Under the pieces are notes generated by a model that was given only the letters and a program-made list of their open reading frames with translations, was not told the origin of the DNA and did no database searches. This document shows, piece after piece, positions 6,667-58,707 of a stretch of 64,000 nucleotides of DNA. The DNA lies in the NCBI GenBank assembly GCA_913051655.1, contig CAJXHI010000007.1, positions 1-64,000 of the forward strand, written 5' to 3'. Position numbers and translations under genes: made by a program. The DNA is from an uncultured Alphaproteobacteria bacterium. GTDB taxonomy: Bacteria > Pseudomonadota > Alphaproteobacteria > Rhodobacterales > Rhodobacteraceae. Numbering within the stretch: the first letter of the stretch is position 1; the number at the start of each line of letters is the position of its first letter.

Positions 6667-7572
6667 CTACACGTTAAGCATCTCACAAATATCATCCAGT
6701 TGATCCAAAGACGCGTAGGAAATTGTCACTTCTCCACTGTCTTTATCTGTATGGTGGTTAATTTGAACCGTCATTCCGAGCGCCGCTGAAAGGTCATTTT
6801 CTAAAGCTTTCGTATCTGCATCTTTATTAGTAAAATTCTTTTTGGAAGATGGGTCAGATGGCTTTTCTAGACCTTCTTTACGTGATTTTTTGACCAGTTT
6901 TTCAGTATCTCTGACAGAAAGCCCTTTGGAAATGATGATTTGTGCTAGTTCGCTAGCGTTTTCTGTTGTGACTAGTGCGCGCGCGTGTCCAATTGTAAGC
7001 TTGGACTCTTTTAGGTGCGCCTGAACATCGACTGGGAGATTTAAAAGACGAAGGAAGTTGGCGATATGGCTCCTACTTTTGCCGAGGGCCTCTGCCATTT
7101 GTTCTTGAGTGCGACCAAAACGATCCATCAATTGGCGGTAACCCGCAGCTTCTTCAACTGGGTTTAGATCTTCACGTTGGATATTTTCGATAATTGCAAC
7201 TTCAAGCACTTCATTATCAGAGAAATCCCGAACTACAGCAGGTAGTTCATGTAGCTGCGCCATTTGTGATGCGCGCCATCGACGTTCCCCTGCAACGATT
7301 TCGAATGCATCACCCTTTTCTGGATGTCGTCTTACAATCAACGGTTGTATTACACCCTTCGTGCGGATTGAATTTGCCAAATCTTCAAGATCAATAGGCG
7401 CAAAGCTCCGCCGTGGCTGGTCTGGGTTCGGAAAGATTTTTTCAATTGGTATATTCTGTTCTGCAGACGACAGAATTAACTTTGTATCGTATGAAACTGC
7501 CGTGTTAGGCTCTGCGTTTGCCATAAGAGCTGATAAGCCGCGGCCAAGACCCTTGGGTTTTGAATTTGCCAT
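6667..7572 (-). CDS. parB: Chromosome-partitioning protein ParB
   Basis: ParB is a CTP-dependent clamp that loads at parS and spreads to mark the origin region for segregation. The 301 residues contain the N-terminal KGLGRGLSALM leader, the CTPase region (PNPDQPRRSF, IQPLIVRR, and the GERRWRASQMA box), a helix-turn-helix TQEQMAEALGKSRSHIANFLRLLNLP and the C-terminal dimerisation domain. It is the last gene of the leftward block mnmE-mnmG-rsmG-parA-parB, 10 bp from parA. Its own target sites lie 1.4 and 3.3 kb upstream, inside rsmG and at the start of mnmG. Confidence 0.97.
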   Translation of the reverse strand: MANSKPKGLGRGLSALMANAEPNTAVSYDTKLILSSAEQNIPIEKIFPNPDQPRRSFAPIDLEDLANSIRTKGVIQPLIVRRHPEKGDAFEIVAGERRWRASQMAQLHELPAVVRDFSDNEVLEVAIIENIQREDLNPVEEAAGYRQLMDRFGRTQEQMAEALGKSRSHIANFLRLLNLPVDVQAHLKESKLTIGHARALVTTENASELAQIIISKGLSVRDTEKLVKKSRKEGLEKPSDPSSKKNFTNKDADTKALENDLSAALGMTVQINHHTDKDSGEVTISYASLDQLDDICEMLNV

Positions 7573-7582
7573 AATTTAACCC

Positions 7583-8401
7583 CTAAGCTGCTGATACTGA
7601 TGGATTGTTAGCAAGAAACTCTTTCGCAAGATCCCGATAAGCCTGCGCGCCCTTTGAAGTGGGATCATAAGACAAAACAGGTAGTGAATAAGATGGCGCT
7701 TCGCTGACCCGGACATTACGCGGAATAATCGACTTATAAACAAGATCGCCAAGATTTTCGCGAGCATCCTCTTCAACTAAAAGCGATAGATTGTTCCGCC
7801 GATCAAACATTGTAAGAACGATACCTTCTATCCGGAGGTGTTTATTTGCTATTGCACGCACTTCTCGTATGGATAACATCAACTGAGAAAGACCCTCGAG
7901 AGCAAAAAATTCGCTTTGCAGTGGAATTAATACGGAGTTTGCGGCCACCATTGCATTGACAGTCAAAAGATTTAGAGATGGCGGACAGTCAATTAGGACA
8001 AAATCAAAGCCAAACTTATTCAAAACGTCTTTTTTCAGCGCGTCACGCAGCATGAAAATCCGATTTTCATTGGCAAAAAGCTCTATATCGGCTGAGCTTA
8101 GATCCGTTGTTGCTGAAATGATTGAAAGGTTTTCAACATCAGTTGCCATAATTACCTCACTTACTTCCACATTTTCAACTAACAATTCAAATGTAGTAAA
8201 CTTCCGCTGATCTGGCCGAATACCCAATCCCGTTGAGGAATTGCCTTGAGGATCGAGATCAATAATCAGTACTTTCTTACCCGTTTCCGCAAGTGCAGCA
8301 GCAAGATTTATGGAAGTTGTGGTTTTCCCAACACCACCTTTTTGATTGGCGATTGCTATTATTTTAAAATCGTTTGCCTTATCAATCCCAGACACGCTCA
8401 A
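7583..8401 (-). CDS. parA: Chromosome-partitioning ATPase ParA (Soj)
   Basis: ParA is a DNA-binding ATPase whose gradient on the nucleoid moves ParB-parS complexes. It has 272 residues with the deviant Walker A KGGVGKTTTSINLA near residue 20, the A' motif LIIDLDPQGNSSTGLG and the Walker B-like FVLIDCPPSLNLLTVNAM. The gene overlaps rsmG by about 20 nt and sits 10 bp before parB, so the three are surely co-transcribed. Length and motifs are those of chromosomal rather than plasmid ParA, in line with the neighbouring mnmG and rsmG. Confidence 0.97.
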   Translation of the reverse strand: MSVSGIDKANDFKIIAIANQKGGVGKTTTSINLAAALAETGKKVLIIDLDPQGNSSTGLGIRPDQRKFTTFELLVENVEVSEVIMATDVENLSIISATTDLSSADIELFANENRIFMLRDALKKDVLNKFGFDFVLIDCPPSLNLLTVNAMVAANSVLIPLQSEFFALEGLSQLMLSIREVRAIANKHLRIEGIVLTMFDRRNNLSLLVEEDARENLGDLVYKSIIPRNVRVSEAPSYSLPVLSYDPTSKGAQAYRDLAKEFLANNPSVSAA

Positions 8402-9005
8402 TGCTCCCTAATTCAAGAATTCTTGCGTTTGGTTGAGTTTGACTATTAATTGCTTTTAGGCTGAAATTCCATTGTTTTCGTGCATCTTTGACCTCTTTTT
8501 TCCAACTAATACCCTTGGGAAAGAAGCATATTGTTTCCTTATTTATCAGCATTTCAGCCATAGAAAGAAGTTCCTTCAACGGCGCAACCGCTCGGGCAGA
8601 TAGAATACTTGCTGGTGAAAGCTTAACTTCTTGCACACGTTCACTCCAAACCGTTCCGGGTATTTTTAATTCCCTCAGCGCTGTTCTTAAAAATGCTGCC
8701 TTCCTACGATCGCTTTCGATAAGATGAATTTTCAGATCCAAATTTTCTTCATAAAGAAGTGCTGACAACACAATAGACGGAAACCCGCCTCCGCTGCCAA
8801 AGTCTGCATAAATACTTGGAGATTTTGGCAGATACGGATATATTTGAGCTGAGTCTAAAATATGTCGCTCCCAAAGCTTGGTAACATCTCCTTTTGAAAC
8901 CAGATTTACTGTCTTCGTCCATTTTCTTACGAGAGTTTCAAATATTCTTAAGCGATCCAATGTTTCACGTGAAACTTTTTTATCACCAACGATCTTACGA
9001 TCCAT
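8382..9005 (-). CDS. rsmG: 16S rRNA (guanine-N7) methyltransferase RsmG (GidB)
   Basis: RsmG methylates N7 of the 16S rRNA 530-loop guanine (G527 in E. coli) using SAM. The 207-residue product has the SAM-binding loop ADFGSGGGFPSIVL, then LIESDRRKAAFLRTALREL, and the C-terminal ETICFFPKG. The start is ATG at 9005, overlapping the mnmG stop as TGATG, so translation is coupled. Codons about 12-17 (V-S-R-E-T) are spelled by a parS site, which makes this short N-terminal stretch serve both as protein and as centromere. Confidence 0.96.
   Translation of the reverse strand: MDRKIVGDKKVSRETLDRLRIFETLVRKWTKTVNLVSKGDVTKLWERHILDSAQIYPYLPKSPSIYADFGSGGGFPSIVLSALLYEENLDLKIHLIESDRRKAAFLRTALRELKIPGTVWSERVQEVKLSPASILSARAVAPLKELLSMAEMLINKETICFFPKGISWKKEVKDARKQWNFSLKAINSQTQPNARILELGSIERVWD
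8961..8976. other. parS centromere site inside rsmG
   Basis: The 16 bases read TGTTTCACGTGAAACT, matching 15 of 16 positions of the universal bacterial parS consensus TGTTTCACGTGAAACA. It lies within the coding sequence of rsmG, 0.6 kb from parA. ParB encoded nearby is the expected binder. Confidence 0.9.
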
Positions 9006-10876
9006 CAAGCGCTCCCCGCGCGACGTTTACTCTTAATCTTGCCTAGTATCAACAAAGCTGCGGCAGGCGTCATGCCGTCAATCCGCATCGCCTGGCTTAA
9101 ATCTCTGGGACAAACGGCCTCAAGCTTAACCTTCAACTCATTAGATAACCCATCTAGAGCAGAATAATCAAATTCTTTAGGGATTATTTGATCTTCATCT
9201 TTTTTGAGGCTCTCAACGTCTTTTTGCTGACGATTCACATAATTTGAATATAGCGCGTCACGACAGATTTGTTCTGAAATTTTTGCTGGATAGCCAGCCA
9301 AATTAGCATCCAAAGCAAGCAAATCGGTAAATTCAACATTTGGAAAAGAGAGTACCTGATATAAACTCCTCTTTGTTCCATCAGAATTGACCTCAATTCC
9401 GCCCAAATTTAACTGTTTAGGAGTAAAAAGCTGTTCCTTGAGCTGTTTTTCTAATTTAGAAAGCTGAGCCTGTTTTAAGCTGAAAGCGGATTTCCGTTCT
9501 TTACCCACGCAACCAAGCTCAACACCCAAGGGCGTCAAGCGTTGATCTGCGTTGTCAGCGCGCAACGAAAGACGAAACTCAGCACGCGACGTAAACATTC
9601 TGTAAGGCTCTGCAACACCCAGCGTTGTCAGATCATCAATCATGACCCCGATATAGCTGTTTCGTCGTGAAAAATAGATTTCATCTTTTCCGAAAGTAGC
9701 ACGGGCTGCATTCAAGCCCGCCACCACACCTTGCGCTGCTGCTTCTTCGTATCCAGTAGTACCATTAATTTGCCCCGCAAGATAAAGGCCAGTCACACCA
9801 CGCACAGCTAGCGTGGTATCCAATTTTCTTGGGTCAACATAATCGTATTCGATTGCATATCCTGGCTGAAGTATTTCTGCGTTCTCGAGACCGGATATTG
9901 AATTCACATATGCCCTCTGCACATCCGCAGGTAAAGATGTTGAAATCCCATTGGGATAAACTGTAAAATCAGCCAGCCCCTCAGGTTCTAGAAAAACCTG
10001 ATGACTTAATTTGTCTGAAAAACGCACGATCTTATCTTCTATCGATGGACAATATCGTGGCCCAATCCCGTCTATACGACCACCATACATTGCAGACCGA
10101 GAGAGGTTTTTTTGTATAATTTCATGTGTCCTTTCATTTGTATGCGTAATTCCACATGAAATTTGCCTTGCAGTAGGTCCTTTAGACATAAATGAGAAAA
10201 GAGCTGGCTCTTCGTCTCCTGATTGCACTTCAAGCGCATCCCAGTTTATAGTTCTCCCATCTAATCTAGGAGGCGTCCCTGTTTTCAACCGACCAAAATC
10301 CAACCCAAAGTCATCCATTTTTGCTGCCAGCCTCACAGAGGGCTGGTCACCCATCCGACCACCAGAAATCTGCTTATCGCCTATATGGATTATGCCCCTC
10401 AAAAATGTACCGGTAGTCAAGATCGTGCTTCTCGAAATCACTTCTGAACCGTCGGCCAAAACAACGCCCGAGATTTGGTTACCTGTACCCAGAAAATCTA
10501 CGACCTCTCCAATAATGATATCTAGGTTATTTTGCTTCGCAATAAATGTTGCAATTGCGTTGGTATAAAGTTTGCGATCCGCTTGCGCTCTAGGCCCTTG
10601 AACCGCGGGACCTTTTTTTCTGTTTAGAAGACGAAACTGGATCCCGGCTTTATCAGCTGCCTTTCCCATTATTCCATCAAGTGCATCAATTTCGCGCACT
10701 AGATGTCCTTTACCTAATCCACCAATAGCTGGATTACAGGACATAACTCCAAGGTCGTGCTGCGTTAAGGTTACTAGAACCGTCTTTGCGCCCAGCCGAG
10801 CCGCTGCGGCAGCTGCTTCGCATCCCGCATGTCCTCCACCAATTACCACAACGTCAAAATGTTTCACGTGAAACAC
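9005..10876 (-). CDS. mnmG: tRNA 5-carboxymethylaminomethyluridine synthase subunit MnmG (GidA)
   Basis: MnmG is the FAD subunit that, with MnmE, makes the carboxymethylaminomethyl modification at wobble U34 of certain tRNAs. The 623-residue protein opens with the Rossmann motif [22 protein letters not shown] and carries the family signatures [15 protein letters not shown] and [17 protein letters not shown], plus the C-terminal helical domain. The start codon is GTG at 10876: the first residues M-F-H-V-K-H are dictated by a perfect parS site that begins one base after the first G. It is separated by 3 bp from mnmE upstream and overlaps rsmG downstream. Confidence 0.97.
10860..10875. other. 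parS centromere site at the mnmG start
   Basis: A perfect 16-bp palindrome TGTTTCACGTGAAACA, identical to the consensus parS. It begins within the GTG start codon of mnmG and encodes its residues 2-5. It lies about 3.3 kb from the candidate oriC and is the stronger of the two ParB sites seen here. Confidence 0.95.
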
Positions 10877-13565: not shown

Positions 13566-14027
13566 CTAAAATTTCACAACCACTGAAACCACAATTACAA
13601 TAAGCAGGATCGTAGGTACTTCGTTCATCATTCTATACTGTCGGCCCGATAAAGCGTTTGAACCAGATTCGAAGTCCTTGCGCCTTAAACCAAGCCAATG
13701 ATGAAACCAAGTCATCCCAATTACAGAGATTGCCTTTAACCATGGCCAAACAGAAGACCAATCCACAACGCCAGGTGTCATAACGAGGATGAGACCAAAA
13801 AACCAGCTGGCAATCAAAGCTGGATTCATAATAAATCTAAAAAGTTTTAGCTCCATAATCTTAAATGTGCTGTCGAGAATATCACCACACTCAGCGCGCT
13901 CTACATGGTATACCATCACTCTTGGAAGGTAAAACAATCCAGCCATCCAAGAAATTACTGCTATAATATGGAACGCTTTTACCCACGGGTAAGCTAAAGC
14001 GAAGAAATCTGTCATCTTATGTTCCAT
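13566..14027 (-). CDS. hemJ: Protoporphyrinogen IX oxidase HemJ
   Basis: HemJ is the membrane protoporphyrinogen oxidase of many alphaproteobacteria, catalysing the penultimate step of heme synthesis. The 149-153 residue protein has four predicted membrane helices; helix 1 carries the conserved histidine in YPWVKAFHIIAVISWMAGLFYLPR, followed by the conserved VYH, and the last helix is TILLIVIVVSVVV. An in-frame ATG at 14015 (MTDFFALAYPW) resembles family starts more closely than the outer ATG at 14027; both have weak ribosome sites. Transcription runs leftward from the candidate origin region, towards rho. Confidence 0.88.
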   Translation of the reverse strand: MEHKMTDFFALAYPWVKAFHIIAVISWMAGLFYLPRVMVYHVERAECGDILDSTFKIMELKLFRFIMNPALIASWFFGLILVMTPGVVDWSSVWPWLKAISVIGMTWFHHWLGLRRKDFESGSNALSGRQYRMMNEVPTILLIVIVVSVVVKF

Positions 14028-14391
14028 GTTCTCTTAGTAACAGTCATAAAATATAAATATATATAGAAAAAGTATGATTATGAAGTAGACGTGGCAAATC
14101 CTGTGGATTAAGCGTTATTAGCTAATCTATTCACATCAAAGATTAAATAAATAGTGTAAATAAAAAATATAATCATTTATAAACAACAATTTATTATTTA
14201 ATAATTTTGTCTTTAAAAACAGTGGAGAATTACCCACAGTTTCCACAAGGGAAAAATTATGCTTTTCAACAGTGGAAAAATTCTATCCAATCAAATAATG
14301 GATTATCCGATCTTCTGTGTAATTTTAAAAAAACTCGAAATATTCAAATGTAAGCAGTGGTTGTTGGGATATTAGACATGGAGTTATCAAC
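14028..14391. other. Candidate chromosomal replication origin (oriC)
   Basis: This 364-bp gap between the divergent hemJ and maf is very AT-rich, especially about 14138-14220, which could be the unwinding element. It contains DnaA-box-like 9-mers: TGTGGATTA at 14102-14110 (reverse complement TAATCCACA, one mismatch to TTATCCACA), TTACCCACA at 14230-14238 (one mismatch), GTTTCCACA at 14239-14247, and further TCCAC-type copies near 14272 on the opposite strand. In Caulobacter and other alphaproteobacteria oriC lies beside hemE in this same gene neighbourhood (hem gene, rho on one side; maf-aroE-coaE-dnaQ on the other). Two parS sites lie within 6 kb. Position is inferred; no skew was calculated. 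Confidence 0.7.
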
Positions 14392-14997
14392 ATGACGATC
14401 CCCATAATTTTGGCATCAGCTTCTGATATTCGGTCTAAACTACTGAATAATGCTGACATCAATCATGAGGTTATTCCAGCAAACATTGACGAAGAAATGA
14501 TTAAGGCATCACTTGAATCAGAAGGTATAACACCAAGGGATATGGCTGATGTTCTTGCAGAACAGAAAGCTAAAAAGATATCACTGAAATATCCAGATGC
14601 ATTTGTAATTGGTAGCGATCAGGTTCTAGACTTTCAGGGACAATATTTCTCAAAACCTAAATCACCCGAATGTCTCGTGGAGTTTCTTGTAAAAGTCAGC
14701 GGAGAAGACCACAGGCTTTATTCTTCTGCCGTAATATACAAAGGTGGTCGTCCAGTCTGGCGCCACGTTGGGAAGGTGACTTTAGCAATTCGGGACCTCT
14801 CTAAAGAATACATCCGCGATTATGTTATAAGTGAATGGGATAATATCAGATATTGCGTGGGTGGATACAAAATAGAGGATAAAGGATTACGTCTTTTCGA
14901 TAAAATAGAAGGAGACTATTTCGTAATATTAGGATTACCTTTATTAGAACTGATTAGATTTCTAGCCGTCAATGGAGCATTAAAAAGTGACAAATGA
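14392..14997 (+). CDS. maf: Maf-family nucleotide pyrophosphatase (YceF type)
   Basis: Maf proteins hydrolyse non-canonical or modified nucleoside triphosphates and have been linked to division control. The 201 residues show IILASASDIRSKLLNNA at the N-terminus, the catalytic region FVIGSDQVLDFQGQYFSKP, and YCVGGYKIEDKGLRLFDKIEGDYFVILGLPL. The ATG follows GGAGTTATC. It is the first gene right of the candidate origin and overlaps aroE by 11 nt, making a compact maf-aroE-coaE-dnaQ operon. Substrate subtype (YceF rather than YhdE) is inferred from sequence resemblance only. Confidence 0.92.
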   Translation: MTIPIILASASDIRSKLLNNADINHEVIPANIDEEMIKASLESEGITPRDMADVLAEQKAKKISLKYPDAFVIGSDQVLDFQGQYFSKPKSPECLVEFLVKVSGEDHRLYSSAVIYKGGRPVWRHVGKVTLAIRDLSKEYIRDYVISEWDNIRYCVGGYKIEDKGLRLFDKIEGDYFVILGLPLLELIRFLAVNGALKSDK

Positions 14998-57453: not shown

Positions 57454-58707
57454 TTAGTGTCCTAGCTGCTTTTGTTCGCGTCGAATACGCCAACCAAGAA
57501 AAATCATATGAGGTATAACTGTTATCATCAGCATAACGGCTATAGCGGCAAATAAATTATCAACATTGTTACCACCAATAGACCATGTGTTCATTGCAGC
57601 CTCCATCATAGTTGCAAGCAGAAGCTTGTCATCATCGTTAGCAGACAATGCGTAGGGTATATCAAAAACCTTCAGTACATCTGTTACTAGGTAGGTCCAT
57701 ACAACAACCACGGCTGAGAAAATTTGAGGTAATTTTACTCTAAAGAAAAGTTGTCTAGGGTTCGCTCCATCGATAATGGCGGCCTCTACTGTTTCTTGCG
57801 GCACACCTCTTAATGCAGCAGAAAAAATAACCATTGCGAAACCGGTTTTTATCCAAACCATAATCCACATAAGGTAGAAGTTGCCCCAAAACTTGAGATT
57901 ATATAGGGGCTCATTATACTTAGGCGTATGTCCCAGAAGTGCTTTTAAAAGGCCTATTTGATAGGAAGGTGTAACACCATTTACCGCTTCTTGAGGTTCA
58001 ATACCGCCGCCTGCAAAAATATTCCGCCAGATTACGGCCGCTCCAACAAAAGAAATAGCTAATGGAACAAATATAAAAGTCTTTGCAACTATACCCCATC
58101 GCACTGAGTCTGCCAAAACCGCAATCAATAATCCAAAAATTATGCACAGAGAAGGTACTAAAATCAGCCACATTAAACTGTTTCTCATGGCAAGTCTAAA
58201 TTGAAGATACCCCAAAGCGGCAGGATCCCAAAGAAACGCGTAGTTGCTAACTGATGCTGTCCCATCGGGTTTTGTGAAAGATATTTTTAAAGTCACAAGA
58301 GCTGGGATAAACAAAAACAGAAGTAGCAAAACAAGTGCAGGTCCTACGAATATCCAAGGCTGAATTGTTTCAGCGATAATGGATCTTCTTCCAATAAACT
58401 TGCTGGATCTGAAATTTGCCAACCCAAAGTTGAGCCAGTTTGTGATCCAGTAATACAAGAATGAGATAAATAAAGCTATCATAACTGAACGTAGAGCAAA
58501 GCCAACCTTCGCAAACCTCAGTTCTGTTACAAAAGGTGCTACAGACCATTCATACTTACGTTGAAGCCAAAGGCCAAAATTTGCAAAAGCGTCATCAATC
58601 GGTGCCGTTAACGAAAATACAAAGACAGCGGTAAGTGGTAACACACAAACGATCGTTAGAACGATGGCCAAACTATTACTGAAAATTATAGATTGAATAG
58701 AACGCAT
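57454..58707 (-). CDS. aglF: Alpha-glucoside ABC transporter permease (AglF)
   Basis: A 417-residue MalF-type permease with about eight membrane helices. IQPWIFVGPALVLLLLFLFIPALVTLKIS opens the main transmembrane block, and the EAA loop is GVPQETVEAAIIDGANPRQLFFRVKLPQ. Extra N-terminal helices (LAIVLTIVCVLPLTAVFVFS) extend it beyond a typical MalF core of 300, matching AglF. The ATG at 58707 has no strong ribosome site; it follows a hairpin that separates it from aglE. Confidence 0.9.
   Translation of the reverse strand: MRSIQSIIFSNSLAIVLTIVCVLPLTAVFVFSLTAPIDDAFANFGLWLQRKYEWSVAPFVTELRFAKVGFALRSVMIALFISFLYYWITNWLNFGLANFRSSKFIGRRSIIAETIQPWIFVGPALVLLLLFLFIPALVTLKISFTKPDGTASVSNYAFLWDPAALGYLQFRLAMRNSLMWLILVPSLCIIFGLLIAVLADSVRWGIVAKTFIFVPLAISFVGAAVIWRNIFAGGGIEPQEAVNGVTPSYQIGLLKALLGHTPKYNEPLYNLKFWGNFYLMWIMVWIKTGFAMVIFSAALRGVPQETVEAAIIDGANPRQLFFRVKLPQIFSAVVVVWTYLVTDVLKVFDIPYALSANDDDKLLLATMMEAAMNTWSIGGNNVDNLFAAIAVMLMITVIPHMIFLGWRIRREQKQLGH

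Follow-up and report, generated by a model that had tools for sequence, protein, structure and literature searches.

The hemJ-maf gap as the very probable chromosomal origin of a Rhodobacteraceae bacterium, with a candidate strand-opening repeat of unusual form

Introduction

The chromosomal origin of Caulobacter crescentus, Cori, has been mapped experimentally and sits between hemE and a DUF299 gene (PMC1914354). It resembles the locus described here in its gap of ~400 bp with an AT-rich part, its weak DnaA boxes and, broadly, the same surrounding genes. The two differ in that our gap is not flanked by hemE and DUF299 and carries neither the CtrA motif TTAA-N7-TTAA nor GANTC.

Within the Rhodobacteraceae, origins have been predicted for 101 strains (Ori-Finder/DoriC; PMC6699656). 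In the part of that survey considered here, they share with our gap a GC minimum, weak DnaA boxes and a position near parAB and the skew minimum. These features were at the same time the criteria of prediction. That part gives no anatomy of the gap, and the genome analyzed here differs in being an unclosed assembly.

A third point of comparison is the basal unwinding system (BUS) with DnaA-trios, known from Bacillus subtilis and the majority of bacteria (PMC6669920, PMC8287927): a DnaA box, a spacer of most commonly 13 bp (PMC8287927), triplets that end box-proximally in 5′-TAG-3′ (3′-GAT-5′), and then an AT-rich tract. The hemJ side of our gap shows this layout, whereas its distal triplets read 5′-ATG/GAT instead of 5′-TAG, and only two triplets of the TAG register, both box-proximal, have a middle A.

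Here, we analyze the gap between hemJ and maf within a stretch of 64 kb (hereafter, the window). The window belongs to an 85-kb contig (C7) of a 2.72-Mb assembly, which comprises 71 contigs and is 84% complete; the closest named relatives of its HemJ are from Rhodobacteraceae. Based on composition, a cluster of DnaA boxes, conserved box offsets, the skew minimum of relatives, the nearby parABS system and a module of the unwinding type, we predict with high confidence that the host chromosome has its single, DnaA-dependent origin (oriC) in this gap.

Composition and gene neighborhood of the gap

The gap (positions 14028–14391) places 364 bp between hemJ (UPF0093; 13566–14027, minus strand; PF03653, E 6e-58) and maf (14392–14997, plus strand; PF02545, E 2e-41). 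With 26.6% GC, it is the most AT-rich stretch in the window. An earlier note on this DNA had described the middle of the gap, at ~14138–14220, as strongly AT-rich, which is borne out: the lowest-GC 80-mer of the whole 64 kb, with 8 G+C of 80, begins at position 14138. We rejected a structured RNA as an explanation, because an Rfam search of the gap gave no match and its strand folds no better than shuffled sequences.

The flanking genes are those that had been named before, with hemJ, rho, mnmE, mnmG, rsmG, parA and parB on the left and maf, aroE, coaE and dnaQ on the right. ParA (7583–8401, minus strand; PF13614 AAA_31, E 5e-63) and ParB (6667–7572, minus strand; ParB_N, HTH_ParB and ParB_C) are accompanied by a perfect parS site, TGTTTCACGTGAAACA (10860–10875, plus strand), and a second one with a single mismatch (8961–8976, plus strand). 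All four elements are located no more than 8 kb from the gap, with the perfect parS and the ParA/ParB genes at a distance of 3–8 kb.

The absence of hemE and the DUF299 gene from this position, also claimed in the earlier note, was found as well: hemE is encoded on a different contig (C9:79207–80223), and the 84%-complete assembly of the host yielded no DUF299 gene. The conclusion that the neighborhood is therefore unusually bare did not hold, since hemE has moved and DUF299 was lost in nearly all genomes of the family. Only three of the 37 sampled family genomes (G007, G010 and G021) have kept DUF299, and hemE adjoins hemJ in G010 and G023 only. The bare neighborhood is hence a family trait and not a peculiarity of this genome. 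In the three exceptions, the DUF299 gene is still located at the gap (loci L037, L190 and L022 of G007, G010 and G021, respectively), in G010 together with hemE, which points to a loss in place in the other members. More distant alphaproteobacteria (G037, G045, G048, G050, G051 and G052) show the order hemJ-hemE-gap-DUF299, in agreement with the arrangement mapped in Caulobacter.

All except nine of the 110 HemJ loci examined gave an adjoining hemJ-maf pair, and in nearly all of these pairs the gap is 350–440 bp long. In five Rhodobacteraceae genomes (G008, G015, G017, G026 and G031), the sole HemJ is a distant one (E 1e-5 to 1e-8), and their origin neighborhood may differ from that of other members. 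At the hemJ locus of G029 (L026), maf was not found beside hemJ and seems to have been lost or moved; here, an element of the origin type lies between hemJ and aroE.

DnaA boxes

Three sites with a single mismatch to the DnaA box are present in the gap. Two of them had been listed in the earlier note and were confirmed: TAATCCACA on the minus strand (14102–14110) and TTACCCACA on the plus strand (14230–14238), the latter matched in the alignment by TTATCCACC (G006) and TTATTCACA (G004). That list had missed the third, TTATCAACA (14384–14392, plus strand), which overlaps the start of maf; a plus-strand box 10–30 bp before maf is recurrent in gaps of the family. The exact sequence TTATCCACA does not occur in the hemJ-maf gap of the window.

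Weaker sites fill much of the remaining gap. Two mismatches are found in CTATTCACA (14127–14135, plus strand; opposite TTATACACA of G006 and CTATCCACA of G004 in the alignment), in TTCTCCACT (14221–14229, minus strand) and in GTTTCCACA (14239–14247, plus strand), which directly abuts the box at 14230 and aligns with TTATCCACA in G006. A weak pair, TTTTCAACA (plus strand) and TTTTCCACT (minus strand), spans positions 14263–14279 in a region kept in G006. Read straight from the sequence, CGTGGCAAA (14090–14098, minus strand; three mismatches) is a possible weak tandem box, and relatives often have a better box than the window at this position (e.g., L059 and L084).

This clustering in an AT-rich intergenic region clearly exceeds chance: the gap holds three boxes with at most one mismatch (0.15 expected) and ten with at most two (1.8 expected), and none of 500 dinucleotide shuffles reached either number. 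At the level of the genome, 753 one-mismatch sites occur in 2.72 Mb, from which we estimate that chance alone would give about one cluster of three such boxes per genome. Since two further clusters were indeed seen in the sampled contigs (C7 at 57.5 kb and C1 at 35 kb), box clusters alone would not settle the position of the origin. The cluster on C7 consists of four one-mismatch boxes at 57557–58148 of the window and is probably due to chance or a DnaA-titrating region; we rejected it as an origin because of its GC content of 41% and the lack of a comparable skew switch.

The earlier note had proposed conservation of the boxes in relatives as a check, and such conservation was observed. Orthologous gaps (96 in total) contain on average 2.7 one-mismatch boxes, compared with 0.10 in shuffles, and boxes recur at offsets of about 70 (minus strand), 97 (plus), 115 (minus), 205 (minus) and 237 (plus). 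In the three genomes of the same genus for which the gap could be aligned, conservation falls mainly on the boxes and on the tract at the hemJ side.

The hemJ-side tract and the site of strand opening

The relatives share two GC valleys, the first on the hemJ side and the second at ~40–45% of the gap. At the hemJ side, where mean GC across relatives drops to 0.19 in the second bin (of 20 per gap), the window has an AT-rich tract (about 14045–14069, plus strand) that is a likely DNA unwinding element (DUE); an AT/purine tract is kept here in the gaps of the family. It is followed by a DnaA-trio-like triplet tract, AAG TAT GAT TAT GAA GTAG (14070–14088, plus strand), with TAG as its end. The family consensus of this triplet tract is AARGATGATGATTATGTAGGG, from which the copy of the window diverges. 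For the hemJ-side element, we obtained the family consensus AARGATGATGAT[G/T]ATGTAGGG, preceded by A-rich sequence over ~25 bp; a score of at least 14 of 21 is reached by 78 of 95 gaps, while shuffles reach a maximum of 13. The spacer between TAG and the nearest box has its mode at 13 bp in the family (28 of 49 cases). The same distance separates TAG from the box at 14102 in the window, within the 16 bp allowed for a BUS, and this spacer holds the possible weak box mentioned above.

The triplets themselves fit less well. In the TAG register, moving away from the box, the window reads TAG, AAG, ATG, ATT, ATG, that is, two consecutive box-proximal NAN triplets followed by ATG, where the criterion calls for at least three. 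An alternative register provides seven triplets with a middle A and a spacer of 17 bp, which exceeds the limit in PMC8287927 by one. In the phase of TAG, the family triplets are ATG, ATG, ATG, ATG, with a middle T in 74–95%. By layout, the hemJ-side module therefore appears BUS-like, and it may be a BUS in the strict sense as well.

The hemE side of the gap in other alphaproteobacteria has the same layout, with triplets of the TGG/TAG/TTG type and then a single box or a pair of boxes. A tally of triplets is dominated by GAT/ATG in Rhodobacteraceae and by TGG/TAG/TTG in the rest of the class. Because the class-wide sample is small (22–30 loci) and the tracts were chosen by a score that favors triplets and G, we consider this contrast a lead and not a proof. 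We tentatively suggest, as a possibility that we would not yet favor, that Rhodobacteraceae origins use a deviant DnaA-trio with a box-proximal 5′-TAG and conserved distal 5′-ATG (middle T, not A) in place of the 5′-TAG/TGG/TTG found elsewhere in the class.

Within the gap, unwinding is likely to take place in the hemJ-side tract at ~14045–14088, with DUE, triplets, spacer and the 14102 box. The earlier note implied that unwinding begins instead in the AT-rich middle (14138–14220). This valley is real, contains the lowest-GC stretch and is kept at the same relative position in relatives. We nevertheless regard it as an improbable opening site, since the middle harbors IHF-like sites and no conserved module of triplets plus box was found in it; the hemJ side, by contrast, combines AT tract, triplets and box at a fixed spacing in the family and across the class. 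The IHF-like site of the window, AAACAACAATTTA (14181–14193, plus strand), has one mismatch to WATCAANNNNTTR; no exact site is present in its gap. Across the family, such sites gather at gap offsets 160–199, with an exact site in 13 gaps compared with 1.8 in shuffles.

Two regulatory motifs of the Cori type were also searched for. The gap of the window contains neither a CtrA site (TTAA-N7-TTAA, up to one mismatch) nor a GANTC (CcrM) site; an exact CtrA site is present in 12 of 98 family gaps.

GC skew and alternative readings of the gap

For GC skew, we used two relatives with near-closed chromosomes: G009, in a single contig of 3.56 Mb, and G019, in two contigs of which the main one has 4.33 Mb. 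In 20-kb samples, both skew and the strand bias of KOPS flip near the orthologous gap and again roughly opposite to it. At 5-kb resolution, the local cumulative skew minimum is located at ~3.475 Mb in G009 (gap at 3.4775 Mb) and at ~1.180 Mb in G019 (gap at 1.1813 Mb), in both cases at a bin edge 1–3 kb from the gap. Slightly lower values one bin off in G019, at 1.165 Mb, are within noise. The switch in strand composition hence coincides with the orthologous gap in both genomes.

In the host itself, skew was sampled over ~460 kb from five contigs. The cumulative minimum of the window lies near 14 kb, and C7 shows the strongest V of the five, only narrowly ahead of the next (925 vs. 829). Part of the local V is due to gene orientation, since the genes diverge from the gap, and GC3 skew on its right-hand side is close to zero. 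The within-genome signal is weak and only suggestive at this sampling.

The same divergence of hemJ and maf could mean that the gap is merely a long promoter region, in which the boxes mark DnaA-regulated transcription and the AT-richness stems from two promoters and their regulatory sites. Promoter-like sites are indeed found on both strands, and the hemJ-side tract is always located upstream of the first gene of the operon, be it hemE or hemJ, and could double as its promoter. But the promoter-like sites are not above shuffles (4 vs. 3.4), and a promoter does not account for the skew minimum at the G009 and G019 gaps, the box array throughout the gap or the parABS neighborhood, so that we consider this reading very unlikely. 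A hemJ promoter as the sole cause of the hemJ-side element is weakened by its position upstream of hemE where hemE intervenes, and only weakened, since an operon promoter would shift likewise. Promoter and origin might also overlap, which would be compatible with oriC.

That the origin lies elsewhere, for instance beside dnaA, with the hemJ-maf cluster as a relic or DnaA-titrating site, is hardly credible: dnaA is located on another contig (C9) and other clusters of three weak boxes do exist, but within 1.5 kb the dnaA locus has just two one-mismatch boxes, both isolated, on which grounds we rejected it, the skew V of C9 is weaker than that of C7, and in the relatives it is the orthologous gap that marks the skew minimum.

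Discussion

The origin candidate placed between hemJ and maf by the earlier note is supported by both the box cluster (three against 0.15) and the location of the orthologous gap at the skew minimum of two relatives. Very probably, the gap is an ordinary origin in the usual place of the family, in which the strand-opening repeat departs from the textbook form.

By analogy to known origins, DnaA would bind the maf-side and central boxes of the gap, and IHF would bend the AT-rich middle. From the 14102 box, together with the weak tandem site at 14090, DnaA could then extend onto the triplet tract (14070–14088) and open the AT-rich tract at ~14045–14069, at which DnaB helicases would be loaded. 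Forks would then move off bidirectionally, and the new origins would be segregated by ParB bound to the parS sites at 10860 and 8961.

These results predict the start of replication for an uncultured-type lineage of the Rhodobacteraceae, which makes estimates of growth rate from read depth possible. They also indicate that, in one family, hemE and DUF299 disappeared from the vicinity of oriC and the origin itself stayed in place. The part most worth following is the putative variant of the strand-opening triplets shared by the family, which would be testable with existing in vitro unwinding assays.
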